64,000 nt of DNA from an uncultured Alphaproteobacteria bacterium (GTDB lineage: Bacteria; Pseudomonadota; Alphaproteobacteria; HIMB59; GCA-002718135), in the NCBI GenBank assembly GCA_902621725.1, contig CACNND010000005.1, forward strand, positions 21,663 through 85,662. The letters are read 5' to 3'. The position numbers and the translations under genes were made by a program. The notes beneath the pieces are model-generated. The model had not been told where the DNA came from and made no database searches. It worked only from the letters and a program-made list of their open reading frames with translations. Shown piece by piece: positions 26,732 through 41,425 of the stretch (position 1 is the stretch's first letter; every line of letters starts with the position of its first letter).

Positions 26732-27580
26732 TTATAGAATTTGAAAATAAACAACCGAAATACCACTCACTATTAAAATAGAAGGTATTATTCGAGATTT
26801 TGCATTCTTCTCAAATAAGAAAAGCATTCCAATAATTGCAGCAAACACAATGCTTATTTCTCTAATACTAGAGACATAAGCTATTTCTATAAATTGCATA
26901 CTCCAAACAACAATTGCGTAACTACTTGTTGCAAAGACACCAGCAGCAATGCCTGATCTAAAAGTGTATGTTTCTCTTTTTCGTAAACCATCTTTAGAGA
27001 TCAAACCAATAATTAGTAAAGGTATTCCATTAAGTGTGAAGAGCCAGTAAATATAGGAAAAACCATTTTCAGAAAGTCTAACCCCGACCCCGTCAACTAA
27101 AGTGTAAGCAGTAATTAGAATAGCCGTTGATATTGCGAGAGCAAAACCTCTGAAGTTAAAAGATAAATTTTTAGAATAAGAAATTAAAAATAACCCAATA
27201 CAAACAATTAATATTCCAACAAAACCAGCAACACTAATATTGGAACTTAAAAATAAAATACTAATGATCGCTACAAACAGACATGAACTTCCTCTAGAAA
27301 TTGGATATATGTAAGAGAGATCACCGTACCTATATGAGTAGATAACATTTAGTCTGTAGAAGACATGAATGATTACGGTTGCTATTAAAAAATACCAAAC
27401 CTCTAAAGTTGGAAATGGAACAGTAAATGTTAAAGGTAAAAAAATAGTAACTTCCAAGACAGACGTTATACCCATTAACGATAAAGGGTTCTTACTTGAT
27501 TTTATTATAGCACTCCAAACTGCATGACATAGAGCAGAAACAAGAATTAAGATAAAAATAAAATTTACTGACAATGTCAT
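26732..27580 (-). CDS. EamA/DMT family transporter at the end of the ugp-like operon
   Basis: A 282-residue protein with about ten membrane segments and the EamA double repeat (start ALCHAVWSAIIKSSKNP, end GMLFLFEKNAKSRIIPSILI-type). It is distinct from the EamA protein at 20183-21067. It lies 14 bases after the ugpE-like permease, so it probably belongs to the phosphorus-related transporter operon. That position hints at movement of a phosphonate or phosphoester breakdown product, which is an inference. Confidence 0.85.
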   Translation of the reverse strand: MTLSVNFIFILILVSALCHAVWSAIIKSSKNPLSLMGITSVLEVTIFLPLTFTVPFPTLEVWYFLIATVIIHVFYRLNVIYSYRYGDLSYIYPISRGSSCLFVAIISILFLSSNISVAGFVGILIVCIGLFLISYSKNLSFNFRGFALAISTAILITAYTLVDGVGVRLSENGFSYIYWLFTLNGIPLLIIGLISKDGLRKRETYTFRSGIAAGVFATSSYAIVVWSMQFIEIAYVSSIREISIVFAAIIGMLFLFEKNAKSRIIPSILIVSGISVVYFQIL

Positions 27581-27594
27581 CAGTAGATAAGAAT

Positions 27595-28488
27595 TTACTT
27601 CATGCCTGTCAAAGTAATTCCTTCAATAAATCGTTTTTGCGCGATTATAAAAGCAACAATAAGGGGAACTGTTACAGTAACTATTGAAGCCATCATAGGA
27701 CCAAATTCGTCACTATCTATTCCACCTCTGAATTCTCTTATACCAAGTGGTGGAGTAAAGAGATCTCTATTTCCTGTTATTACCATACGAGGCCAGAAAT
27801 AATCATTCCAGTGTGCAACAACTGAGAATATTGCAAAAGCAAGTAACGCTGGTATTGCAGTTGGAAGCATTACTTTCCATACAATTGCGTACTCTCCCAT
27901 GCCATCCATCCTGGCGGCATCAATTAATTCATCTGGCACAGTCATAAAGAATTGCCGCATTAAAAAGATTCCAAACACCGATATGGTCCAGGGGAGTATT
28001 AAGGCGGAATAGGTGTCAACTAATCCTGCCTGGGCTAACATAACATATAATGGAAGTGCAATTCCGTGAACTGGAATGAGCAAACAAAATAAAACCATCG
28101 AGAAAACAAATTCTCGTCCGTAAAACCGTAACTTGGCAAGTGCATATGCGCACGGTAAGGCGACTAAAACCTGAATGATAAAGATTGATAAAGTAACAAT
28201 GACACCATTCATTAAGTATCTAGGAATAGGAGCTTTTTCAAAAGCAAACCAATAGTTGTATTGATATGGCTTCATTGTACATGTTTCTTCTGAATAACCA
28301 GTTTTAACACATACAGGAAACGTTTGAGTTTCTTGTGCACCAATAAGACCACCAGAAATTGATTGGATTTCTTGCTGAGATTTTAATGACATTGAAACCA
28401 TCATATAAAAAGGGAGCATTACTACGATTGCACCAATAATTAAGATTGCATGCTTCCAACCTTCCCCAATATATTGTTTAGCTTCCAT
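27595..28488 (-). CDS. ugpE: UgpE-like ABC transporter permease
   Basis: Second membrane subunit of a CUT1-type ABC importer (sugars or glycerol-3-phosphate). 297 residues, six membrane segments, with the EAA loop around DELIDAARMDGMGEYAIVWKVMLP. The periplasmic loop after helix 1 is enlarged and has a cysteine pair (PVCVKTGYSEETC). It overlaps the UgpA-like gene by one base. Assignment to Ugp rather than a sugar importer rests on the phosphonate/phosphate neighbourhood and a Pho box before the operon. Confidence 0.78.
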   Translation of the reverse strand: MEAKQYIGEGWKHAILIIGAIVVMLPFYMMVSMSLKSQQEIQSISGGLIGAQETQTFPVCVKTGYSEETCTMKPYQYNYWFAFEKAPIPRYLMNGVIVTLSIFIIQVLVALPCAYALAKLRFYGREFVFSMVLFCLLIPVHGIALPLYVMLAQAGLVDTYSALILPWTISVFGIFLMRQFFMTVPDELIDAARMDGMGEYAIVWKVMLPTAIPALLAFAIFSVVAHWNDYFWPRMVITGNRDLFTPPLGIREFRGGIDSDEFGPMMASIVTVTVPLIVAFIIAQKRFIEGITLTGMK

Positions 28489-29444
28489 TAATAATGAACC
28501 CTCTTCTCAATGACATATCTTTGGAAAAACGTTAACACAAGAATAAATCCAATAAAGACAACAGTGATTGCTGCACCGATACTTGTTAAGTTTTGTTGAA
28601 TAGCTTTTTCAAAGATTGCATACATCATGACATACGTTGTTTTTGATGGACCACCTTTAGTAAGTATTTCGATAGTATCAAATACCTGAAATGTTCTAAT
28701 GGTAGTAATAGTCACAACAAACAACGTTGTTGGACCAAGCATTGGCCATGTAACAAGTTTAAATTGCTCCCATGTAGATTTAGCACCATCCATTTCTGCA
28801 GCTTGGTATAACTCTCTTGGTATACTTGTTAAGCCAGCTAAATATAAAACCATGTTAAAACCAAAAGCCTGCCAAATTCCTATGAAACATACTGTCCAAA
28901 TCGCAGTATTTTTTTGCTTTAACCAATATGGAAAATCCATGTTGTTTGCACATGCTACAGCATACCAGCTTTCTTGTGAGTCTACCCATGGCAACAAATG
29001 AAAACCAAGAATGAATTCTCTAACTCCTCCACACCCATTTGCTAAAAAACTATTTACAATTCCTAATGTTGGATGAAGAGTAAATTCCCATGCAATTGCC
29101 ATTGCAAGAAGAGTTGCCATAACTGGAAGAAAAAAAATTGTTTTATATATATCAGCGCCAAACCTTAGTGAGTTTAAGAGCATAGCAGCACATAATCCCA
29201 GTACAACAGAAATTGGAACGACAACAATAACATACGTCGCTGTGGCCCAAATCATTTTGACATATGTTTTTCGATTGAACATCTTGTCATAATTTTCTAG
29301 TCCAACCCACTCGAATGTTTTGTTTCCTAAATTGTAGTCAGTAAAAGAAATTCCTCCTGCAAGAAAAAGAGGAAAGATTAAAATAATTATCATCAGTATG
29401 ATTGCTGGTGCAATAAACCATATGTGAGCTTTTGAATTATGCAT
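28488..29444 (-). CDS. ugpA: UgpA-like ABC transporter permease
   Basis: First membrane subunit of the same importer, 318 residues. The EAA loop is ELYQAAEMDGAKSTWEQFKLVTWPML. Between helices it carries an extra periplasmic segment with cysteines (NGCGGVREF and VACANNMDFPYW) not expected in E. coli UgpA, which is about 295 residues. The gene overlaps ugpC by eight bases and the ugpE-like gene by one. Substrate is probably an organophosphorus compound by context, with glycerol-3-phosphate as the default Ugp substrate. Confidence 0.78.
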   Translation of the reverse strand: MHNSKAHIWFIAPAIILMIIILIFPLFLAGGISFTDYNLGNKTFEWVGLENYDKMFNRKTYVKMIWATATYVIVVVPISVVLGLCAAMLLNSLRFGADIYKTIFFLPVMATLLAMAIAWEFTLHPTLGIVNSFLANGCGGVREFILGFHLLPWVDSQESWYAVACANNMDFPYWLKQKNTAIWTVCFIGIWQAFGFNMVLYLAGLTSIPRELYQAAEMDGAKSTWEQFKLVTWPMLGPTTLFVVTITTIRTFQVFDTIEILTKGGPSKTTYVMMYAIFEKAIQQNLTSIGAAITVVFIGFILVLTFFQRYVIEKRVHY

Positions 29445-30570
29445 TAGTAAATTGAACTCTCATTCCTACTTGATTAAATAGTAATGCTTTATCTGAAACT
29501 CTTTTAATATTCACACTAGAACCGTTTGAAATTTGGTGTGTAAATTGTGGCAAGCCCCTTACAATTATTTTATTTGAACCGTCTTCAATATTTACATGAA
29601 AGAAAATATCTGAACCTAAATTTTCTCTATATGCAACTGTTCCACTAAATGTATTTTCATTACTTTCATTTGTAATTTCTAAATGTTCTGGTCGAATACC
29701 AATATGTAAATCTGTATTACTTTCAGAACTTTTTCTTTTTAAATTAACGTTGAGAAAACTTACTGTCCCACTTGAGTCCGAAGTTCCTTTAAATATATTT
29801 ATTTTTGGACTTCCAACAAACTGAGCCACACTTAATGAGGAAGGATTGTCATATACTTCTTGAGGTGTATCAAGTTGTAATAAATTTCCATCAATCATAA
29901 CAGCCATTCTAGAAGACATAGTTAATGCTTCTGCTTGATCATGTGTAACGTACACAAAAGTAGTTTTAAGTGAATTATGAAGTTCAGATAGTTCAGAACG
30001 CATGTGAACTCTCAAAGCCGCATCTAAATTTGAAAGAGGTTCATCCATTAAAAAGGCAACAGGCTCTCTAACCATAGCACGACCAAGAGCAACTCTTTGT
30101 CTTTGACCACCTGACAATTGTCCAGGTTTTCTATCTAATAGTTCTGAAATTTTTAGAGTTTCAGAAGTTTTATTTACTAATTGATTTATAGATTCTGTTT
30201 TCTCTTTTTTGCTTGGTGAAAAATTACCAATTAAGGGAAGTCTTTCAAATGCATTATAATCTCTAAGTCTTAATGGAGTTTCCAAATTTCTTCTTACTGT
30301 AAGATGAGGATAAAGAGCATATGACTGGAATACCATTGCCAAATCTCTTTCACTGGCTCTAACTCTATTTACATTTTTATTATCTATTAATACATCACCT
30401 GAAGTCTGCTGTTCCAATCCTGCAATTATTCTAAGTAATGTAGATTTACCACAACCAGATGGACCAACTAACGTTAAGAATTCTCCATCGTTTATATCAA
30501 CATTCAAATTATTAAGTACTTGTGTAGAACCAAATGACTTTGAAATATTTTTAAGTGATATTGTCCCCAC
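29437..30570 (-). CDS. ugpC: UgpC-like ABC transporter ATP-binding protein
   Basis: ATPase of the importer, 377 residues. Walker [10 protein letters not shown], signature LSGGQRQRVALGRAMV, Walker B AFLMDEPLSNLDA and VTHDQAEAL; a C-terminal MalK/UgpC-type regulatory domain includes HIGIRPEHLEI. An insert of about 30 residues (NAFERLPLIGNFSPSKKEK) sits between Walker A and the signature. First gene of the minus-strand operon, preceded by a three-half-site Pho box in the divergent region shared with phnA. Confidence 0.85.
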   Translation of the reverse strand: MGTISLKNISKSFGSTQVLNNLNVDINDGEFLTLVGPSGCGKSTLLRIIAGLEQQTSGDVLIDNKNVNRVRASERDLAMVFQSYALYPHLTVRRNLETPLRLRDYNAFERLPLIGNFSPSKKEKTESINQLVNKTSETLKISELLDRKPGQLSGGQRQRVALGRAMVREPVAFLMDEPLSNLDAALRVHMRSELSELHNSLKTTFVYVTHDQAEALTMSSRMAVMIDGNLLQLDTPQEVYDNPSSLSVAQFVGSPKINIFKGTSDSSGTVSFLNVNLKRKSSESNTDLHIGIRPEHLEITNESNENTFSGTVAYRENLGSDIFFHVNIEDGSNKIIVRGLPQFTHQISNGSSVNIKRVSDKALLFNQVGMRVQFTNA

Positions 30571-30746: not shown

Positions 30747-31988
30747 GTGTCCGATAATTTAGAAATTAATAAAAGAGAATATCCAAGCTCTTTCTCAAAA
30801 ACTGCTATTGTTATATGCCTTGATGGTAGTCAAAAAGAGTATCTCGAAGAAGCATCAAAATCTAATCTTACACCAAATCTTGATAAATTAATTGCAAGTG
30901 GTGAAAACCTACTTGTTCACAGCGCTATTCCAAGTTTTACAAATCCAAATAACATTTCGATTGTAACAGGCCAACCAAGTTCTGTACACGGTATATGCGG
31001 AAACTTCTTTTATACACCTGAGACGGGTGAAGAAGTAATGATGAATGACCCAAAATATATGCGAGCACCAACTATTTTTGAAAAATTTTACAATTCTGGT
31101 TCTAAAATTGCTCTTGTTACTGCAAAAGACAAGTTGAGAACACTTTTAGGAAACGGATTAAGTTTTGATGATGAGAGAGCTATTTGTTTTTCTGCTGAAA
31201 AATCTGATCAAGCAACAAAAGATCTCAATGGTATAGATAATGTAAACGATTGGTTGGGGATGCCAGTGCCAGAAGTATATTCTGAAGGACTTTCTGAATT
31301 TGTAATGGCTGCAGGTGTAAAACTTCTTGAGGAGTTTAAACCAAATATTATGTATTTATCGACTACGGATTATATTCAACACAAATATGCACCAGGAAAT
31401 GAAACAGCAAATAAATTTTATGCAATGTTTGATAAATATATTGGACTTTTAAATAAGGAGGATGTTTCTATAATCATCACAGCAGATCACGGAATGAAAC
31501 CAAAATCAAAAGAAGATGGTTCACCAAATGCAATATTTTTACAAGATTATTTAGATAAAAAATTTGAACCAAACATGGCTAAAGTCATCCTACCAATTAC
31601 AGATCCATATGTCGTTCATCATGGTTCACTTGGTTCTTTTGCAACAATTTATTTAGAAGACAAGAGCAGGGTAGATTCAGTTGTAAATGCTATTAAAGAA
31701 ATAAAAGATATAGAAGTTGTTTTAACAAAAGATGAAGGATGCTCTACTTATAATTTACCTCCTGATAGAATGGGGGATATTATATGTATGTCTTCAGAAT
31801 TTATGACTATTGGTTCATCGGAAGATAAACACAATCTTTCTGGATTAAATGAACCTTTACGCTCTCATGGAGGACTCCATGAAAGAGAAGTGCCATTCAT
31901 ATCAAATTTAAAATTACAAAACTTAGATACTAGCAAACAATTATATAACTATGATGCATTTTATTATGCAATAAATGGAGCCCTATGA
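30747..31988 (+). CDS. phnA: Phosphonoacetate hydrolase
   Basis: Splits the C-P bond of phosphonoacetate to acetate and phosphate. A 413-residue alkaline-phosphatase-superfamily enzyme: LDGSQ (metal Asp26), [14 protein letters not shown] with nucleophile Thr65, [20 protein letters not shown] and ITADHGM for the two zinc sites, and a final SHGGLHE. This set is specific to PhnA of the phosphonoacetate pathway rather than general phosphodiesterases. Start is GTG. Overlaps phnY with ATGA. With PhnW and PhnY it completes 2-AEP to acetate plus phosphate. Confidence 0.94.
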
Positions 31989-33427
31989 TGCACAAAAAAA
32001 TGATTAATGAAGCAATGCGTATTGCTGGAGAAAAAGTTACTTCAGATAAAACAATAAATGTTGAGTACCCTTTTACAGGTGAAGTAATCGGAACGGTTCC
32101 AGCCGGTACCGCAGAGCATGCAAGAAAGGCTTTAGATATAGCTGCAAATTATCAGCCTAAACTTACAAGATATGAGAGACAAAAAATTCTTCAAACTGCT
32201 GCAGAAGTACTTGTTAAAAGAAAAGAAGAAATTTCTGATATTATTACTTTAGAACTTGGTATCTCAAAACAAGATTCTCTATACGAAGTAGGAAGAGCTT
32301 TTGATGTCTTTTCTTTAACAGCTCAACTTTGTATTCTTGATGATGGAGAAATATTTTCTTGTGATTTAACTCCACATGGAAAAGCGAGAAAAATATTTAC
32401 CATAAGAGAACCTTTAACGGCAATCTCAGCAATCACTCCATTTAATCATCCTTTGAATATGGTAGCGCATAAAATTGCACCTTCAATTGCAACTAATAAT
32501 TGTACAGTATGTAAGCAGACAGAATTAACACCTTTAACAGCAATGGTACTCGCTGATGTTTTATATGAAGCAGGTCTGCCACCAGAAATGTTTTCAGTTG
32601 TAACTGGATGGCCTCAAGATATCGGATCAGAAATGATCAAGAATCCAAATATTGACCTAATTACTTTTACAGGTAGTGTAGGTGTAGGAAAATTAATTGC
32701 TGAACAAGCTGGATACAAAAGAACAGTTCTAGAGCTTGGTGGTAATGATCCATTAATTGTTTTAAATGACTTAGATGGTGATGATCTTAAAAAAGCTGTT
32801 GAACTAGCTGTTACTGGAGCAACGAAAAACTCTGGTCAACGTTGTACAGCTGTTAAAAGAATACTGGTTCAAGAATCTATTGCAGATCAATTTGTTGAAA
32901 TGGCTCTTGAGCGTGCCAAGAAAATTAAATTTGGTGATCCTATGAATATGGAAACAGACTTGGGTACTGTTGTTAATGCTCAGGCTGCAGAACTTTTTGA
33001 TAAAAGAGTTTCTATGGCTGAAGAAGATGGTGCAAAAATTTTATATCACCCTGGAAGAAAGGGTGCTTTGTTACCTCCAATAGTTGTAGATCATGTTGAT
33101 CCTAAAAGTGAATTAGTTTTAGAAGAAACTTTTGGTCCAGTTATCCCAATCATTCGTGTGCCTAATGACGATGAAGCTGTAATGAAAATATCTAATTCAA
33201 CTGCATTCGGATTATCATCTGGTGTATGCACAAATAACTTCATGAGAGCAAAAAAATATATTCAAGGCTTAAATGTTGGCACTGTAAATATTTGGGAAGT
33301 TCCAGGCTATAGAATTGAAATGTCTCCTTTTGGAGGAATTAAAGATTCAGGTCTTGGTTATAAAGAAGGTGTAATTGAAGCAATGAAAAGCTTTACTAAT
33401 GTTAAAACCTTCTCACTACCCTGGTAA
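31985..33427 (+). CDS. phnY: Phosphonoacetaldehyde dehydrogenase
   Basis: NAD-dependent aldehyde dehydrogenase oxidising phosphonoacetaldehyde to phosphonoacetate. At 480 residues it has the ALDH fold: [14 protein letters not shown] (cofactor binding), LELGGND (general base Glu about 253), [11 protein letters not shown] (nucleophile Cys about 287) and ETFGPVIP. General ALDH motifs do not fix the substrate; the four-base overlap with phnA does. Two adjacent ATG codons could start translation. It is followed by an AT-rich gap containing the Pho box for the binding-protein gene. Confidence 0.9.
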
Positions 33428-33563: not shown

Positions 33564-34817
33564 ATGAAAAAATTAATTACAGGATTGGCAGCCGTATTAG
33601 CTTTCGGTTTTTATGGTTCTGTTAATTCAGCTAAGTCTATTGAAATAGAAGTAGCTTATCCTTATTCAGGATTATTCGATGTTACGTTTCAAGCTATTAT
33701 GCCAGAGTTTGAAAAAGCACATCCAGATATTCAAGTTAAATTTAGAGCAACTTATGAAAACTATGAGGATGCAACTGCAACAATCTTCAGAGAGTCTACT
33801 TCAGGTAATTTACCAGATGTAACAATGCAAGGTCTTAACAGACAGGCACCTCTAGTTGACAAAGGTATTGCTAAGTCTTTAGAGCCATTTATCGCAAAAG
33901 AAGCAGCTTTTGAAAAAGATGGTTACCATTCTGCTATGTTAAGTCTTTCAACATTCGGTGGTGAAGTTTATGGATTACCATTTTCTGTATCAACACCAGT
34001 TGGATATTATAACATGGATTTATTAGCTGAAGCAGGTGTAGATAGTATTCCAACTAACTGGGACGAAGTTATTGCAGCATGTAATAAATTAGAAGCAGCA
34101 GGTAAAGGAACTCTATACTTTGGTTGGAACATTACAGGTAACTGGTTTCACCAAGCATTAATGCATACTCAGAATGTTCCAATGGTTAAAGATGGAGCTG
34201 TAAATATGGGTGGAGATGCAGGACTTGCAACGTTAGAGCAAATGAAATCAATCATGAGCGGATGTAATATGCCAAACTATTCAATTGCTGATGGTCAAGC
34301 TGCGTTTAACGCAGGTACTATTGGTATGATGTTCTGGTCTACTTCAAGCTTGGGTTCAGTTAATGCTGCAAAGGCAGACTTTGTTTTAAAAACTGCACCA
34401 TTCCCTGGAATGGCTGGAGTAAACAATGGAACACCAGCAAGATTACCAGCAGGTGGAAATGCTGCAATGTTAGTGTCTACATCTGATGACCCAGCAAGAG
34501 TTGATGCTGCATGGACTTTCTTAAAGTTCATAACATCAGGTATTGGTGCTGCATTAGTTGCTGAAACAACTGGATATGTTCCACCAAACAAAGCAGCGAA
34601 TGATTTATTAGGTGACTTCTATAGTCAAAACCCTAATAAACTTACTGCTGTTGAACAACTTCCACTTCTTGCTGATTGGTTTGCGTATCCTGGTGAAAAT
34701 GGATTAGCTGTTACACAGGTAATCTATGATTACACGGAAGAAATTGCTACAGGCGACGCTGATGATATGGCAGATCTTCAAGAAGAAATGATGGAAGAAA
34801 TAAACGATCTTATGTAA
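33564..34817 (+). CDS. ugpB: UgpB-like periplasmic binding protein (family 1)
   Basis: Binding protein of a CUT1-type importer, 417 residues, signal peptide about 1-23 (SVNSA). EVAYPYSGLFDVTFQAIMPEFEKAHPDIQV and ADGQAAFNAGTIGMMFWSTSS are typical of UgpB-like proteins. It is the only binding protein near the ugpCAE-like operon, which lies across phnAY on the other strand. It has its own Pho box and strong terminator, as suits a highly expressed binding protein. The ligand could be glycerol-3-phosphate, a glycerophosphodiester or a phosphonate; I cannot choose from sequence. Confidence 0.82.
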   Translation: MKKLITGLAAVLAFGFYGSVNSAKSIEIEVAYPYSGLFDVTFQAIMPEFEKAHPDIQVKFRATYENYEDATATIFRESTSGNLPDVTMQGLNRQAPLVDKGIAKSLEPFIAKEAAFEKDGYHSAMLSLSTFGGEVYGLPFSVSTPVGYYNMDLLAEAGVDSIPTNWDEVIAACNKLEAAGKGTLYFGWNITGNWFHQALMHTQNVPMVKDGAVNMGGDAGLATLEQMKSIMSGCNMPNYSIADGQAAFNAGTIGMMFWSTSSLGSVNAAKADFVLKTAPFPGMAGVNNGTPARLPAGGNAAMLVSTSDDPARVDAAWTFLKFITSGIGAALVAETTGYVPPNKAANDLLGDFYSQNPNKLTAVEQLPLLADWFAYPGENGLAVTQVIYDYTEEIATGDADDMADLQEEMMEEINDLM

Positions 34818-34847: not shown

Positions 34848-34880
34848 ACAGCGGCTTTATAAAAGCCGCTGTTTTATTTT
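34848..34880 (+). terminator. Rho-independent terminator after the UgpB-like gene
   Basis: An 11-base perfect stem ACAGCGGCTTT / AAAGCCGCTGT with a three-base loop ATA, followed by TTTATTTT. It ends the binding-protein transcript, so the following gene must be read from a new promoter or by read-through; the next ATG is 25 bases later. Confidence 0.9.
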
Positions 34881-34904: not shown

Positions 34905-35984
34905 ATGCCTCTTACAACAACTACAATAGGTGCTTATCCAAAACCTAAACAAACACCCATTCAAGATTGGTTTTTAGGGACAAAATCAGAAGAAGAGAGA
35001 AAAGCATCAAAAGGATTATTATCAAATTGGTCACCTGGCGCATATGAAAAAGCATTAGAGTCTGCAGGTGCGGATGCTGAAAAATTATTTTTAGCAGCAA
35101 TTAAAGAAGTTATAACTGATCAAGTAAATGCGGGTATTGATGTTCCAACAGATGGGGAAGTTAGGCGCGAGAGTTATGTATTATATCAATGTCGATTTTT
35201 AAATGGTGTAAGTTTTCAGGAAGTTACACATAAGTCAGTAAGACAGGGTGCGTTTGAGGCTGACCTTCCAACTATTGTTGCACCAATTTCAAGTAAAGAA
35301 ATACGTATGCATTTAGATTGGAAGAGTGCACAACAATTTACAAAAAACCCAGTTAAAATTACGCTACCTGGACCAATGACAATTACAGATTCAATTGCCA
35401 ACAATTACTATGATGACATGAAAAAACTTGGTTTTGATTTAGCATTAGCCCTCAATAAAGAAATCAAGGCACTTGTAGATGCAGGTTGTCAGTATATTCA
35501 AATTGATGAACCAGTATTTGCTAGAAAGCCCGATGAAGCTCATTCTTACGGTATGGAAAATTTAGAAAGAATGATGCATGGTATACCTAAAGAAGTGCAA
35601 CGCGTTTGCCATATTTGTTGTGGTTATCCTAACTCATTAGATTCAGAAGGGTATAAAAAGGCTGATCTAGATGCTTATGATAGAATTGCATCACTTGTGG
35701 ATGATTCAACTATTGATGAAGTATCTTTAGAAGATTCACATAGGCATAATGATTTAAATCTTTTAGAAAAATTTACTAAAACAAAAGTAATTTTTGGATT
35801 TATTGATATTGCAAAAAGTAGAATGGAGTCTGTTGAAGAAGTAAGAGTTCGTATCAAAGATTCACTTGAACATATTGATGAACACCGTTTAATAGCTGCC
35901 CCAGATTGTGGTTTAGGTTTCTTTACACGAGAACAAGCAATTGAGAAAATGACAATTTTAACTAAAGCGGCAAAATCAATTTAA
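34905..35984 (+). CDS. Short MetE-like methyltransferase (C-terminal catalytic domain only)
   Basis: A 359-residue protein matching only the catalytic half of cobalamin-independent methionine synthase. Zinc-ligand candidates are His and Cys in CHICCGYPN, Glu in SLEDSHRH and Cys in APDCGLGFF; LPGPMTI, PTDGEVRRESY and IDEPVFARK are other family motifs. Lacking the N-terminal half of MetE (about 750 residues), it resembles core-MetE/MetE-like proteins whose methyl donors are often unknown. Sitting inside a phosphonate gene cluster, four bases before the Fe-ADH gene, its real substrate may not be homocysteine with methyl-folate. This is inference. Confidence 0.82.
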   Translation: MPLTTTTIGAYPKPKQTPIQDWFLGTKSEEERKASKGLLSNWSPGAYEKALESAGADAEKLFLAAIKEVITDQVNAGIDVPTDGEVRRESYVLYQCRFLNGVSFQEVTHKSVRQGAFEADLPTIVAPISSKEIRMHLDWKSAQQFTKNPVKITLPGPMTITDSIANNYYDDMKKLGFDLALALNKEIKALVDAGCQYIQIDEPVFARKPDEAHSYGMENLERMMHGIPKEVQRVCHICCGYPNSLDSEGYKKADLDAYDRIASLVDDSTIDEVSLEDSHRHNDLNLLEKFTKTKVIFGFIDIAKSRMESVEEVRVRIKDSLEHIDEHRLIAAPDCGLGFFTREQAIEKMTILTKAAKSI

Positions 35985-35988
35985 GGTA

Positions 35989-37101
35989 ATGTGGAATTAT
36001 TTTAACCCTGTTGAAATTATCTTTGGAGAAAATAGATTTACAGAAGTGCATGATGCTCTTAAAAATAAGAACTACATCATAATCACTCATCCAGAAGAAA
36101 TTTTTAAAAAATATAGCGATGAATTAAAATCTTCTTCAAATCCACCTTTATCCATTATGACGGATGTTCAGCCTAATCCAGATTATAAGGATATTTTAGA
36201 GCTGCAAAATAAATTTTCTTCAATCAATGAATCGGTAGATTATATTTTAGCTATAGGTGGTGGCTCTGTTACAGATACAGCTAAAGCAATTGCTGCATTT
36301 AAAGATAAACAAGAATATCTAACAGATTTTGTTCGCAATAAAAAAAGTCCAAGAGTCGAAAATCCAATCAAGATTATTGCAATACCTACAACTTCAGGAA
36401 CATCAAGTGAGCTTACGTGTTGGGCCACAATATGGGATAAAGAAAAAAATAATAAATTATCTTTGACGCACAAATCTCTTTATGCAGAAAAAACAATTAT
36501 CGATCCATCTATTATGGTTGATAAGCCTTTAGGCTTGACCATTTCAACTGGTTTAGATGCTCTCTCCCATTCAATGGAAAGTATTTGGAATATTAATGCA
36601 AATCCAGTTTCTGCTTCTCATGCAATACAAGCATCAAAATTAGTATTAGAAAATTTACCACTTCTCACTAAAGATTTAAGAAATGTTGAATTACGCTCAA
36701 ACATTGCATTGGCGTGTGTTCATGCTGGTTTAGCGTTTTCCAATACGAAAACTGCTATTGCGCACAATCTATCATACCCTGTGACACTCAATTACGGTAT
36801 TCAGCATGGTATTGCTTGTTCATTTACTTTACCCATGATTACTAAAAGTATGGTTGGAATTGATAGTGTAGCTGAGGACAGACTAAAATTAATTTTTAAT
36901 AATAATCTTGAGAATGCTGCAGATCATCTGAGTGAATTTATGCGTTCTTTAGAGGTTCCTCTTAACTTAAATGAAATAAAAGTTCCTGTTCAAGAATGGA
37001 ATAATATAGTAGATGATGCGTTTTTAGGAGAAAGAGGTAAAAACTTTATTGGTAATAAAGAAGCCTTCATCTCTTCTGCTAAATCAATGGGACTTTATTA
37101 G
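35989..37101 (+). CDS. Iron-containing alcohol dehydrogenase, possibly phosphonoacetaldehyde reductase
   Basis: A 370-residue group III alcohol dehydrogenase. NAD-binding GGGSVTDTAKA; metal ligands expected in STGLDALSHSMES (Asp and His), AHNLSYPV (His) and GIQHGIACSF (His). Several family members interconvert phosphonoacetaldehyde and 2-hydroxyethylphosphonate, and the surrounding phosphonate genes make such a role plausible; other short aldehydes or alcohols are equally possible by motif. It is four bases after the MetE-like gene and two before the methyltransferase-like gene, so the three form one operon. Confidence 0.8.
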   Translation: MWNYFNPVEIIFGENRFTEVHDALKNKNYIIITHPEEIFKKYSDELKSSSNPPLSIMTDVQPNPDYKDILELQNKFSSINESVDYILAIGGGSVTDTAKAIAAFKDKQEYLTDFVRNKKSPRVENPIKIIAIPTTSGTSSELTCWATIWDKEKNNKLSLTHKSLYAEKTIIDPSIMVDKPLGLTISTGLDALSHSMESIWNINANPVSASHAIQASKLVLENLPLLTKDLRNVELRSNIALACVHAGLAFSNTKTAIAHNLSYPVTLNYGIQHGIACSFTLPMITKSMVGIDSVAEDRLKLIFNNNLENAADHLSEFMRSLEVPLNLNEIKVPVQEWNNIVDDAFLGERGKNFIGNKEAFISSAKSMGLY

Positions 37102-37103
37102 TA

Positions 37104-38210
37104 ATGAAAAAAAATTTCAGGTTTTATGATAACAGACAAAAATACTTATTATTTGTCACAACAACAAATGAAAAAAATCAAATTGCTGATGCGATACGTC
37201 CTCACGTAAATAAAATTAAACCTCAAAAACCTGGCATAAAAATATTTGATGCTGGTATGGGTGATGGTTCCTTACTTATGAATGTTATGCGTCAGTGCCA
37301 TGAGGCTAAGCCTAACGTACCTTTATTAGTTTGCACAAAAGAAATAAGCATAGAAGATGTAAGATTAGGTTTAGAAAAGTTACCCGATAGGTTTGTTGAG
37401 CATAAGAATACTGTTTTTGTCATTTCAAATCTACACTACGCCGAAGCCGCAAACTTAAAATCAAAAAATGAAGTTAAGCAGAAAAAAATTAATTGGAATA
37501 TTATTAAATTAAAAGGTGACACTTCTCTTGAATTTGCTCAACAATTAAGAAAACAAAATGAATTTTTAGAAAAAAAATGGAATATAGAAATTAATAAAAA
37601 GTCAGGTAACCATACTTATAAAGAGCCTTCAGTCATGGTTATCTACCGCGAAGATCAAGAATTTAATGTTAATGAATTAATACCTACCAAAAAAAAATCA
37701 GATAATAAATTTGATCTTATTATTGCTTCACAGCCTTATCGTTCAAGAATTTCAGCAGAAAAGAAATCAAAATATGTCATCGAACCAATGATTCGAGCGT
37801 TAAAATCAAAAGGGAAATTATTAACTATTCATGCTTCAGGAAAAGATCCTGCTAATGAAATAATTCGTAAAATTTGGCCAAAAGAGGACCCATTTCCTTC
37901 TCTTGGAAATAGTATCTTTTCTTATCTTAAGAAAAATTTAGATAAAGATTTATTAAGAAGATTATCTTTTGGAGAAAAAAGAATTATTAAATGTAAATTG
38001 AGAGCTCTACCAACAGAAATCAGTGGAGGTATAGCTACATCATTAGTTTTTTCTGCTTGGAATGCCTCCATATATGTCAATCAAATGGATGACGACAAAG
38101 TAATGAAAGTAGAAAAAACTAAAAACTATGAAAAAATTGTTCAAAAAATAGTTTCAAAAAATAAAGGCCTTTATTTCAACAATGAAATATTTGTAATCGA
38201 AAAAAAATAA
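37104..38210 (+). CDS. Putative class I SAM-dependent methyltransferase, unassigned
   Basis: I do not recognise this 368-residue protein as a named family. IKIFDAGMGDGSLL (about residues 45-58) looks like SAM-binding motif I, and FDLIIASQPYRS followed by ALKSKGKLLTIHASG resembles motifs IV and V of class I methyltransferases, so a methyltransferase fold is the best guess. A lysine-rich middle of about 90 residues separates these parts. It closes the MetE-like/Fe-ADH operon and faces the phosphodiesterase gene tail to tail with four bases between. Substrate unknown. Confidence 0.6.
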   Translation: MKKNFRFYDNRQKYLLFVTTTNEKNQIADAIRPHVNKIKPQKPGIKIFDAGMGDGSLLMNVMRQCHEAKPNVPLLVCTKEISIEDVRLGLEKLPDRFVEHKNTVFVISNLHYAEAANLKSKNEVKQKKINWNIIKLKGDTSLEFAQQLRKQNEFLEKKWNIEINKKSGNHTYKEPSVMVIYREDQEFNVNELIPTKKKSDNKFDLIIASQPYRSRISAEKKSKYVIEPMIRALKSKGKLLTIHASGKDPANEIIRKIWPKEDPFPSLGNSIFSYLKKNLDKDLLRRLSFGEKRIIKCKLRALPTEISGGIATSLVFSAWNASIYVNQMDDDKVMKVEKTKNYEKIVQKIVSKNKGLYFNNEIFVIEKK

Positions 38211-38214
38211 TTTT

Positions 38215-39003
38215 TTATTTAAACCAATTAACTTCTGTTTTTAAAAAATCCTCTGTATGAATAATTAAGGCGTCAGATCGAATTATTGCAACATTATAAT
38301 TTGTATCTGTATTAGCCGTTCCTAAACGATATTCATTTGAAAAGTTAGGTATTAGAGGAGACCAAGTACTTCTTGGGGAGGAAAAAGTAATACCACAATA
38401 AGAACCAGAACTTGTAATGTGTTGATGACCAAAAAAAATATGTTTTATTATCTTATTATTTTTCGTTAAAATTTTTTGAAACTCTTTTTTTTGTTGTAAT
38501 CCTATTCCATCACTTTCCTCTTTTACTAATGCCAGTGGATTATGATGCATAAAGATGTACGTATCCGTATTAGTTTTACCTAAAATATTATTTAACCATT
38601 CTTGCCTCTCTTCACAGTAATGTCCTTGGTGAGTATTAATTAGATTAGTATCTATAAAAATTAAACGTTTATTATCTATATCCTTAAAGTATTGAATAAA
38701 TCCATTTGGATCGGTTTCAATATTAGGAAAGTTTATTTTAAACTCATCTCTGTTATCATGATTACCTATAATGAGTTGAGGATTTAAATTCTTTGGCAGG
38801 CCTGCTTCATCAATGATTTTTATAAATAACTGATAAGAATCTTTATCTCCTAAGTCTGTAATATCACCAGTGATGGCAAATAAATCTGCATCACCATGAT
38901 TATTTTTTATATGACTTAATGCTTTTTTAAATTTACTGACAGGATCTATGCCATGAATCTTATCTATGTAAATATGAGGGTCTGAAAGGTGAATAATTTT
39001 CAT
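38215..39003 (-). CDS. Calcineurin-like phosphodiesterase (CpdA/GpdQ family)
   Basis: A 262-residue two-metal phosphodiesterase with no signal peptide. Metal motifs in order: LSDPHI, TGDITDLGD, IGNHDNRDEF, MHHNPL and GHQHIT. The family includes cyclic AMP phosphodiesterase CpdA and glycerophosphodiesterase GpdQ. In this setting, beside an Ugp-like importer, hydrolysis of imported glycerophosphodiesters is the attractive role, but cAMP hydrolysis cannot be excluded. It is 20 bases downstream of the AllA-like gene on the same strand, after phnW. Confidence 0.85.
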   Translation of the reverse strand: MKIIHLSDPHIYIDKIHGIDPVSKFKKALSHIKNNHGDADLFAITGDITDLGDKDSYQLFIKIIDEAGLPKNLNPQLIIGNHDNRDEFKINFPNIETDPNGFIQYFKDIDNKRLIFIDTNLINTHQGHYCEERQEWLNNILGKTNTDTYIFMHHNPLALVKEESDGIGLQQKKEFQKILTKNNKIIKHIFFGHQHITSSGSYCGITFSSPRSTWSPLIPNFSNEYRLGTANTDTNYNVAIIRSDALIIHTEDFLKTEVNWFK

Positions 39004-39023: not shown

Positions 39024-39656
39024 TTAGATCGCAGTTTTAAAATAAATATATTTATTAAATTCCTCTTTTAAGTCGATGCTAACTCTTGCATGTACTTTAC
39101 CTTGTTTTCCTTGAAATGATTGTTTTTCTGTAACTGGAAACACACCTTCATGCCAAATATTTGGATGAATATATAAACCTTTTGATCCGTCACAATAAAA
39201 TGCTTTGAAATGTTCTGGTTCAATGTCGTCTGTTGGTAAGGCTAAAGGACAAATAAATGGTTTATTTTCTTCAGGAAAGAAAAGCTGACCTCCATCAGGA
39301 TGATAATTTGCATGCCATAAAAAAATTTTTGTTGGATCTGAATATTTATCTTTTTGTAATTCTTGATCAGGATTATTGGCATAGCCCAGTATATATTTTC
39401 CATCTACTTCATAATCGCTTTTATGTTGAACAGCATTATTTTGCCCATACAGCACGTCACCTTGCCACCAGGTATCAAAAGAACCTTCGGTAGTTCCACC
39501 TTCATTACCAGTTCCCTCTTCTATGTCGCGCCATCCTTGTTTTGGCCAAGTAACAATTTCAATATCACTATTTTCAAAACTATCGATTAAATACCCATAT
39601 CCTTTAAGATTTTCATTTGTTGCTTTAACTAAAGGTATTTCAATTTCTTTTGTCAT
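39024..39656 (-). CDS. AllA-like cupin (ureidoglycolate lyase-related), unknown role
   Basis: A 210-residue cupin-type protein resembling ureidoglycolate lyase: ATNENLKGYGYLIDSFE at the start, HANYHPDGGQLFFP, PEHFKAFYCDGSKGLYIHP and WHEGVFP, the last like the WHH block of AllA. It is longer than AllA (about 160) because of an insert rich in Gly/Glu (EGTGNEGGTTEG). No allantoin genes are near. It lies seven bases after phnW in the same operon, so a role in 2-AEP or phosphonate breakdown is more likely than purine catabolism. Exact reaction unknown. Confidence 0.65.
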   Translation of the reverse strand: MTKEIEIPLVKATNENLKGYGYLIDSFENSDIEIVTWPKQGWRDIEEGTGNEGGTTEGSFDTWWQGDVLYGQNNAVQHKSDYEVDGKYILGYANNPDQELQKDKYSDPTKIFLWHANYHPDGGQLFFPEENKPFICPLALPTDDIEPEHFKAFYCDGSKGLYIHPNIWHEGVFPVTEKQSFQGKQGKVHARVSIDLKEEFNKYIYFKTAI

Positions 39657-39663
39657 TATTTTG

Positions 39664-40761
39664 TTAGTTTAATGTTAATCCCAATTCAGTAACAACTTCT
39701 TTTACTGCTTTTATAGTATCCATCATGTCTTGTTCATCTAAATTACCAATACACCCAATTCTAAAAGTTTCTGCTACTGTTAGTTTTCCCGGATAAATTA
39801 AAAAATTTTTTTCACTAAGAGCATTATAAAACTTCTCAAAATTAAATTTAGGATCATCAGGTTGTTTAAAAGTAATAATAATTGGTGCTTGCAAATTATC
39901 AGGAAGTAATTGCTCAAATCCCAACTCTTTCATTCCATTACAAATAATTTCACAATTTTTTTTATATCTTTTACCTCTTCCTTTTACACCGCCTTGTTCT
40001 TTATGTTCTTCAATCGCTTGATTGAATGCAGCTAATACGTGTGTAGGAGGTGTAAATCGCCATTGTTTATTTTTTTCCATTGCTTGCCATTGATCATACA
40101 AGTCTAGACTTAATGAGTGACTATTGCCTTTTGCATTTTGAATAACTTCATTTTTAACAAGAATGAAACCAACACCTGGCACACCTTCTAAGCATTTGTT
40201 TGATGAAGCGGCTACAGCATCAAAAGTAATTGTTTTAGAACTTAAGGGTAATGCACCAAAGGCACTCATTGCATCGATGAACAGCGATAAATTTTTCATT
40301 TCAACTAATTTTGCAATGTCTTCAATAGGATTTAAAATACCCGATGTTGTTTCACAATATACAGCAAAGACGTGTGTTAAGTTGTTGCTATCAATTAACT
40401 CTTCAATTTTGTTGATGTCATGTACTTCATGTTCAGCAACTTCATATTCAATAAAATCTCTTCCTAAATAAGTGCACATTTTTTTCATTCTTTGTCCGTA
40501 AGCACCATTGATCAGAATTAGAATTTTAGAATCTTTTTGAGTAAGAGAGCTCACCATTGACTCTACAGCAAAAGTTCCACTTCCCTGCATTGGAACACAT
40601 TGATATTTATCTTCACCGTCTATTAATTTAACAAGAGAATCTCTAATTGATGCATTGAGATCAATAAATTTTGTATCTCTTGAACCCCAATCATGAAGCA
40701 TAGCCTCTTTTGTTGACATTGATGTCGTGAGAGGACCAGGGGTTAATAATTTTTTATCCAT
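39664..40761 (-). CDS. phnW: 2-aminoethylphosphonate--pyruvate transaminase
   Basis: PLP enzyme moving the amino group of 2-aminoethylphosphonate to pyruvate, giving phosphonoacetaldehyde and alanine. The 365-residue protein has the class V signature start LLTPGPLTTS, HDWGSRD, GSGTFAVE, and Lys189 in SSNKCLEGVPGVGF as the cofactor-binding lysine. Length and motifs match PhnW closely. It heads a minus-strand operon with the AllA-like and phosphodiesterase genes and is divergent from the PhnZ-like gene, with 88 bases between. Together with phnY and phnA it forms a full 2-AEP route. Confidence 0.95.
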   Translation of the reverse strand: MDKKLLTPGPLTTSMSTKEAMLHDWGSRDTKFIDLNASIRDSLVKLIDGEDKYQCVPMQGSGTFAVESMVSSLTQKDSKILILINGAYGQRMKKMCTYLGRDFIEYEVAEHEVHDINKIEELIDSNNLTHVFAVYCETTSGILNPIEDIAKLVEMKNLSLFIDAMSAFGALPLSSKTITFDAVAASSNKCLEGVPGVGFILVKNEVIQNAKGNSHSLSLDLYDQWQAMEKNKQWRFTPPTHVLAAFNQAIEEHKEQGGVKGRGKRYKKNCEIICNGMKELGFEQLLPDNLQAPIIITFKQPDDPKFNFEKFYNALSEKNFLIYPGKLTVAETFRIGCIGNLDEQDMMDTIKAVKEVVTELGLTLN

Positions 40762-40849: not shown

Positions 40850-41425
40850 ATGAGAATGGAAGAAAATATCGTAGATTACCTCTTAGATCTTTTGAAAACA
40901 AAAGGCGCTGATATTCAATATGGTAATGAGGATGTGACCCAGCTTGAGCATGCACTCCAATGTGCTGAGCTTGCTGAAAAACATAAATTACCAGGACCAA
41001 CAATTGCTGCAGCATTACTGCATGATGTTGGCCACCTTATCTATGAGGACGGCGATCCCATTCATGAAGGCAAAGATGGTCATCATGAAAATTTAGGTGC
41101 TGATTTTTTAAAAAAATATTTTGGTGAGGATGTTATTTTACCAATTAGAGCACATGTTGATTCAAAAAGATATTTATCAAGTGTTGAAGAAGGTTATTAT
41201 GATAGTCTATCAGAAGCATCAAAACTTTCGTTAAAAGTTCAAGGTGGACCTTTCTCAAAAGAAGAAGCAGAAGCGTTTATCAGCAAACCTTTTATGGATG
41301 AAGCAGTAGAGCTTAGAAGATTTGATGACTTAGCAAAAGTTCTAGATAAAAAAACTCCCGATGTTGAACATTTCCGCCCCTATTTAGAAGAAGCAAGACA
41401 GTCTTTTTTAGCTAAACAAGCGTAA
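40850..41425 (+). CDS. phnZ: PhnZ-like HD-domain diiron oxygenase
   Basis: PhnZ uses a mixed-valence diiron centre to cleave 2-amino-1-hydroxyethylphosphonate into glycine and phosphate. The 191-residue protein has His34 (LEHALQ), His58-Asp59 (LLHDVGH), His79 (GHHE), His102 (RAHVDSKRYL) and Asp in LRRFDD, matching the HD ligand set. Tyr24 and Glu27 (YGNE) match the residues known to gate the substrate in PhnZ. Its usual partner, the PhnY* dioxygenase that hydroxylates 2-AEP, is not in this window, so its substrate source is open. Confidence 0.88.
   Translation: MRMEENIVDYLLDLLKTKGADIQYGNEDVTQLEHALQCAELAEKHKLPGPTIAAALLHDVGHLIYEDGDPIHEGKDGHHENLGADFLKKYFGEDVILPIRAHVDSKRYLSSVEEGYYDSLSEASKLSLKVQGGPFSKEEAEAFISKPFMDEAVELRRFDDLAKVLDKKTPDVEHFRPYLEEARQSFLAKQA

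Follow-up and report, generated by a model that had tools for sequence, protein, structure and literature searches.

The locus raises the question of what a gene related to the methionine synthase MetE does inside a phosphonate cluster, and whether the two genes behind it share its task. The window, i.e. the whole stretch of DNA analysed, comprises 64,000 nt of a genome assembly of 1.38 Mb in 65 contigs. The features on which the question turns are:

26732-27580, minus strand: phn_DUF6-like membrane protein (TIGR03340, 143 bits vs. cut-off 288)
27595-30570, minus strand: UgpE/UgpA/UgpC-like ABC transporter genes (NCBIfam)
30747-31988, plus strand: PhnA, phosphonoacetate hydrolase (TIGR02335, 467.4 bits vs. 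cut-off 407.55)
31985-33427, plus strand: PhnY, phosphonoacetaldehyde dehydrogenase (TIGR03250, 797.4 bits vs. cut-off 635.65)
33564-34817, plus strand: UgpB-like solute-binding protein (PF01547; UgpB 65.9 bits)
34848-34872, plus strand: terminator/attenuator-like hairpin (11-pair stem, T tail) separating the binding-protein gene from the MetE gene
34905-35984, plus strand: MetE-like protein, catalytic domain only, 359 aa (PF01717, E 9e-35)
35989-37101, plus strand: PsrA-like iron alcohol dehydrogenase (Fe-ADH), 370 aa (PF00465/PF25137; NCBIfam TIGR03405)
37104-38210, plus strand: third protein, 368 aa, with the fold of a class I SAM methyltransferase in the structure prediction
39664-40761, minus strand: PhnW, 2-aminoethylphosphonate (AEP) transaminase (TIGR02326, 459.4 bits vs. 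cut-off 400.8)

PhnA, PhnY, the solute-binding protein, the MetE-like protein, the Fe-ADH and the third protein are encoded in a co-directional run of six genes, whose 3′ half is the region 34905-38210. The gaps of 4 bases (MetE/Fe-ADH) and 2 bases (Fe-ADH/third gene) are as an earlier, sequence-only reading had described them. The three reading frames are not chance, since dozens of species in the order have retained them. The hairpin was found at the same position in four relatives, with compensatory (paired) stem changes, suggesting a probable difference in expression level between the first three genes and the last three. No RNA families were found in the window. The phn_DUF6-like membrane gene was seen in loci with and without Ugp genes. 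On the other side, the cluster adjoins an SpdA-like phosphodiesterase (38215-39003), which together with the Ugp-type transporter could make aminophosphonates available from their esters, such as glyceryl esters; in L127, L129 and L145 a comparable position is taken by PehA-like ester hydrolases. In those loci of the genus that were read, PhnW is accompanied by a ureidoglycolate-lyase-like protein (39024-39656 in the window), which may be a partner of it. Divergent to PhnW lies a PhnZ-like HD oxygenase (40850-41425; TIGR03276, 201 bits vs. cut-off 214.6) with no adjacent PhnY*-type dioxygenase.

The first of the three proteins corresponds to the MetE catalytic domain alone, as the sequence-only reading had recognised. 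PF01717 spans most of its length, Meth_synt_1 remained below its cut-off, and there is no N-terminal folate domain. The best score among the curated NCBIfam methionine synthases was 195.7 bits, far short of the cut-off of 406. The zinc ligands H236, C238, E276 and C335 are present in 98 of 98 subfamily members. E85 and D201, the counterparts of MetE Glu484 and Asp599, do not vary in these 98 members either, and the position matching Ser433 is Ala in most of them; all three MetE residues have homocysteine-site roles (PMC7857596). Position 95 is His in 93 of 93 other members and position 98 is His in 87 of 93, while the window's clade carries Q and F, respectively, so the clade may act on a different substrate from the other members.

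The nearest solved relative is the core methionine synthase MesD (3rpd, 153 bits; PMC7857596), which also consists of the catalytic MetE domain alone with zinc ligands H-C-E-C. The window protein differs from MesD in being only about one-third identical to it, in the Ala at the Ser433 position, and in its catabolic neighbours. Moreover, the MesD-type gene of Rahnella is preceded by DUF1852/MesX, whereas the window gene has no such adjoining partner; a search for MesX (PF08908/DUF1852) gave no match in 12 genomes, none of which served as a positive. The identity to subfamily members is 46-54%, clearly apart from the ~35% to ordinary core MetE. Judged by its sequence, the short MetE falls into a separate subfamily within the MetE catalytic-domain family. 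When the bacterial and archaeal genomes of one collection were scanned, at least 546 pattern-matched relatives came up, some of them ordinary core MetE of lower identity; the best 80, chosen by sequence similarity and not by context, were kept and read. Their main sources are Gammaproteobacteria, SAR324 and Rhodospirillales, uncultured and for the most part marine. Among the matches listed in a plasmid search for the subfamily, only ordinary core MetE appeared, with ≤ 33% identity.

Within the order, a nearly full-length MetE of the window's type (≥ 71% identity) was found in 85 of 160 genomes. In 80 of these 85, phnA lies ~4 kb upstream on the same contig (tables read by eye), and in the remaining five MetE is close to a contig end and the contig stops before phnA. 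A second family of the order (G104) has the Ugp transporter, PhnA, PhnY, the binding protein, MetE and Fe-ADH, and the third gene is absent at the end. The Ugp transporter genes share the cassette with MetE in both families, and the UgpB-like binding protein is present in MetE loci and missing from MetE-free ones. The MetE-free loci have the order PhnA-PhnY-third gene (L040, L041, L043, L044, L047, L048) or PhnA-PhnY-Fe-ADH-third gene (L045, L046). Fe-ADH also stands beside phnA, with MetE absent, in G020, G042, G088, G035 and G026. These variants point to three separable additions, namely transporter-binding protein-MetE, Fe-ADH, and the third gene. The proposal of a single three-gene module is therefore rejected, as the third gene follows phnA-phnY alone in several relatives and Fe-ADH occurs without MetE; neither Fe-ADH nor the third gene was found in any of the 80 MetE-subfamily loci outside the order. 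The predicted association with phosphonate genes was borne out for MetE and Fe-ADH, but the third gene is found elsewhere away from them. In G104 (L037/L092, HIMB59-type family), the phosphonate cassette adjoins a third-gene homologue and an M24 peptidase-family gene. Both are present in relatives lacking the cassette, which suggests that the cassette site in this family is an insertion point.

The third protein carries the SAM-like motif FDAGMGDG, noticed earlier, at residues 48-55, with F48, D49, A50, G51, G53, D54 and G55 invariant in 17 homologues. No family scored above its cut-off (Methyltransf_31, E 9e-4), and no solved structure related by sequence was found. The structure prediction that had been suggested for it gave an AlphaFold model with pLDDT 83 and pTM 0.85, and a Foldseek search with this model retrieved class I SAM methyltransferases, the best match being histamine N-methyltransferase. 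On the evidence of the model, the protein is a class I SAM-dependent methyltransferase. Homologues occur in 25 of 385 genomes of the class. Their loci include nine with a methylenetetrahydrofolate-reductase-like neighbour (Pfam check of one member, the others by sequence similarity or by eye), and in others the neighbour is core-MetE-like, metK or ahcY. In the window's genus, the third gene follows phnA-phnY even where MetE and Fe-ADH are missing. The protein is thus tied to methyl metabolism generally and to phnA-phnY in this genus, and its contexts place it outside the MetE/Fe-ADH set. A role as a phosphonate-specific enzyme is unsupported, given the reductase-like neighbour in the nine loci outside the genus. 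The pairing of a histamine N-methyltransferase-like protein with a methylenetetrahydrofolate-reductase-like one recurs in many alphaproteobacterial families (L031, L200-L204, L206, L207, L214).

The assignment of the Fe-ADH to the phosphonate group was sustained by its best NCBIfam match, PsrA (Phn_Fe-ADH, TIGR03405), and by its phosphonate gene neighbourhood, although with 363.9 bits it missed the equivalog cut-off of 423.7; the G104 homologue scored 385.0 bits. Its relatives stand with phnA and phnY in Leisingera and with phnX in Comamonas and Agrobacterium; the stretches read there contain no phnW, which suggests that phosphonoacetaldehyde is made there from an alcohol. By sequence comparison the enzyme belongs with the PsrA-type phosphonate alcohol dehydrogenases, and it probably oxidises 2-hydroxyethylphosphonate to phosphonoacetaldehyde. 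The biosynthetic phosphonoacetaldehyde reductases are of the same Fe-ADH class (PMC9381506), so the direction is drawn from the catabolic neighbours. Literature searches on PsrA returned nothing.

Outside the order, the MetE subfamily recurs beside Pot-type ABC transporters, the omega-aminotransferase AptA, Xsc, alanine dehydrogenase, a MocR-type regulator, dimethylglycine-dehydrogenase-like FAD/GcvT proteins (14 of the 80 loci) and PhnW. Distant Gammaproteobacteria have the co-directional run PhnW-PhnA-PhnY-PehA-MetE (L127) and the run PhnW-FAD/GcvT-MetE (L152), and in these runs PhnW, PhnA and PhnY score above their curated cut-offs. L145 has PhnA-PhnY-PbfA-(2 genes)-PhnW-PehA-MetE, and PhnW and FAD/GcvT share the MetE locus in L118, L149, L093, L097 and L136. 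TmpA is near MetE and above its cut-off in L090, L091 and L130; TmpB exceeds its cut-off only in L090, and in L130 it falls slightly short. The genes for AEP analogues (Xsc, AptA, alanine dehydrogenase) adjoin other members. AEP, taurine and beta-alanine have the common form H2N-CH2-CH2-X, where X is acidic.

At least one scored marker was present in 32 of the 80 subfamily loci, whereas all 20 loci (12-20 kb) with an ordinary core MetE were free of them (p 1.5e-4; p 0.07 for phosphonate markers alone), with related loci counted as independent in these tests. PhnW occurred in 10 of the 80 loci vs. ~0.4 expected if every genome carried a single, randomly placed copy in each 3 Mb. The other 48 loci had none of the scored markers, and many of them are on short contigs. 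On the tree, the phosphonate-linked members fall in several separate parts, intermixed with Xsc-linked ones. The minimum number of context changes is nine, which we do not take as independent gains because short contigs conceal neighbours.

Gene order, family membership, the conservation of catalytic residues and the repeated association in separate lineages are established here, and from them we infer the substrate, the acceptor and the direction of methyl transfer. With a probability that we put at about 0.48, the short MetE would be a zinc/homocysteine-type demethylase of an N-methylated or quaternary aminophosphonate feeding the PhnW/PhnY/PhnA route, with Fe-ADH as a separate feeder. The substrate would enter through the Ugp-type transporter. 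The MetE-like protein would take a methyl group from the quaternary or N-methylated nitrogen of AEP, e.g. of N,N,N-trimethyl-AEP, and pass it to a zinc-bound thiol, most likely that of homocysteine, so that methionine is formed and AEP is left with fewer methyl groups; methionine as the product is suggested by the zinc-homocysteine site. Further N-demethylation to AEP would fall to a dimethylglycine-dehydrogenase-like FAD/GcvT enzyme encoded elsewhere in the genome. The window's phosphonate cluster has no such gene, and its genome has two homologues, one full-length with 35% identity and another truncated at a contig end with 43%. PhnW would then form phosphonoacetaldehyde, PhnY phosphonoacetate, and PhnA acetate and phosphate, while Fe-ADH would supply phosphonoacetaldehyde from 2-hydroxyethylphosphonate. 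The earlier suggestion of methyl transfer combined with redox chemistry at a phosphonate alcohol or aldehyde remains plausible as a methyl-moving step and an alcohol oxidation, but not as one module.

For the subfamily as a whole, association with AEP/taurine-type catabolism, a tertiary-amine demethylase and TmpA/TmpB is best read as removal of the first methyl from a quaternary nitrogen. Somewhat more tentatively than for the window protein, we propose that in uncultured marine bacteria these MetE-fold proteins carry out, without cobalamin, the first demethylation of phosphonates and sulfonates that bear a quaternary ammonium group, such as trimethyl-AEP, taurine betaine and their analogues, and couple it to methionine synthesis. 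Trimethyl-AEP is reported to be frequent in nature, its sole described degradation route uses two iron oxygenases, and no flavin enzymes acting on quaternary amines have been reported (PMC10590968). A MetE-type demethylase would therefore fill a known gap as a second trimethyl-AEP route besides TmpA/TmpB. It would also account for core-MetE homologues of marine bacteria that had been noted as unassigned (PMC12478193), and it would provide a vitamin B12-independent link between the use of phosphonates and sulfonates as nutrients and the supply of methionine. With at least 546 relatives, some of them ordinary core MetE, marine nutrient cycling could be strongly affected. Our literature search found no paper linking a methionine synthase with phosphonoacetaldehyde.

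TmpA/TmpB likewise act on trimethyl-AEP, and TmpA neighbours the MetE subfamily in the three loci given above, but these iron oxygenases cleave the C-P bond oxidatively to glycine betaine and phosphate. PbfB/PbfC/PbfD and PbfA (PMC10590968, PMC8154272) are also feeders that open the PhnW/PhnY/PhnA route to modified AEPs; they are FAD oxidoreductases or an ammonia-lyase, and those FAD enzymes are inactive on trimethyl-AEP. Bmt/BHMT (PF02574) and MtgBCD of glycine betaine demethylation (PMC12366255, PMC12478193) move a methyl group from a quaternary ammonium compound towards methionine, as proposed here, but belong to other protein families; here the fold is that of MetE and the cluster has no cobalamin protein.

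The substrate might instead be glycine betaine or a carboxy-betaine supplied by neighbouring pathways and not a phosphonate, the subfamily then being a cobalamin- and folate-independent betaine-homocysteine methyltransferase. This would suit L090, where TmpA/TmpB and a carnitine 3-dehydrogenase lead to glycine betaine, as well as the choline-dehydrogenase-like gene in L083 and the dimethylglycine-dehydrogenase-like neighbours. We consider it unlikely, as a gene for glycine betaine formation was recognised neither in the loci linked to PhnW, Xsc and AptA nor in the window's cluster, where the HD protein scored 157.8 against the TmpB cut-off of 300.

In the window's own clade, Q and F at positions 95 and 98 and the Fe-ADH immediately 3′ of MetE make another methylated phosphonate a serious rival. 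MetE would O-demethylate the methyl ester of 2-hydroxyethylphosphonate, a marine phosphonate that is ester-bound in polysaccharides (PMC9381506), and the adjacent Fe-ADH would oxidise the alcohol to phosphonoacetaldehyde, in line with its phnW-free relatives. Against this, Fe-ADH is found without MetE, and the MetE relatives outside the order are without Fe-ADH. To our knowledge, no MetE-fold enzyme acts on such esters, and we judge this reading less probable still. Least likely of all is an ordinary core methionine synthase incidentally placed in a phosphonate cassette, as despite the retained zinc and homocysteine residues and the closeness to MesD, the protein scores far under every NCBIfam methionine-synthase cut-off, its gene is strictly linked to phnA in the order and dispensable (missing in the 96% complete G069, which keeps just a 50% paralogue), and its catabolic contexts recur, vs. 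none in the 20 ordinary loci.

A second MetE-subfamily paralogue was observed in the genus, in L081 (G000 contig 13, 489-1589) and L082. Its neighbours are AptA, alanine dehydrogenase and phosphate acetyltransferase, joined in L082 by a PehA-like sulfatase, and it is probably the taurine or beta-alanine betaine version of the enzyme.
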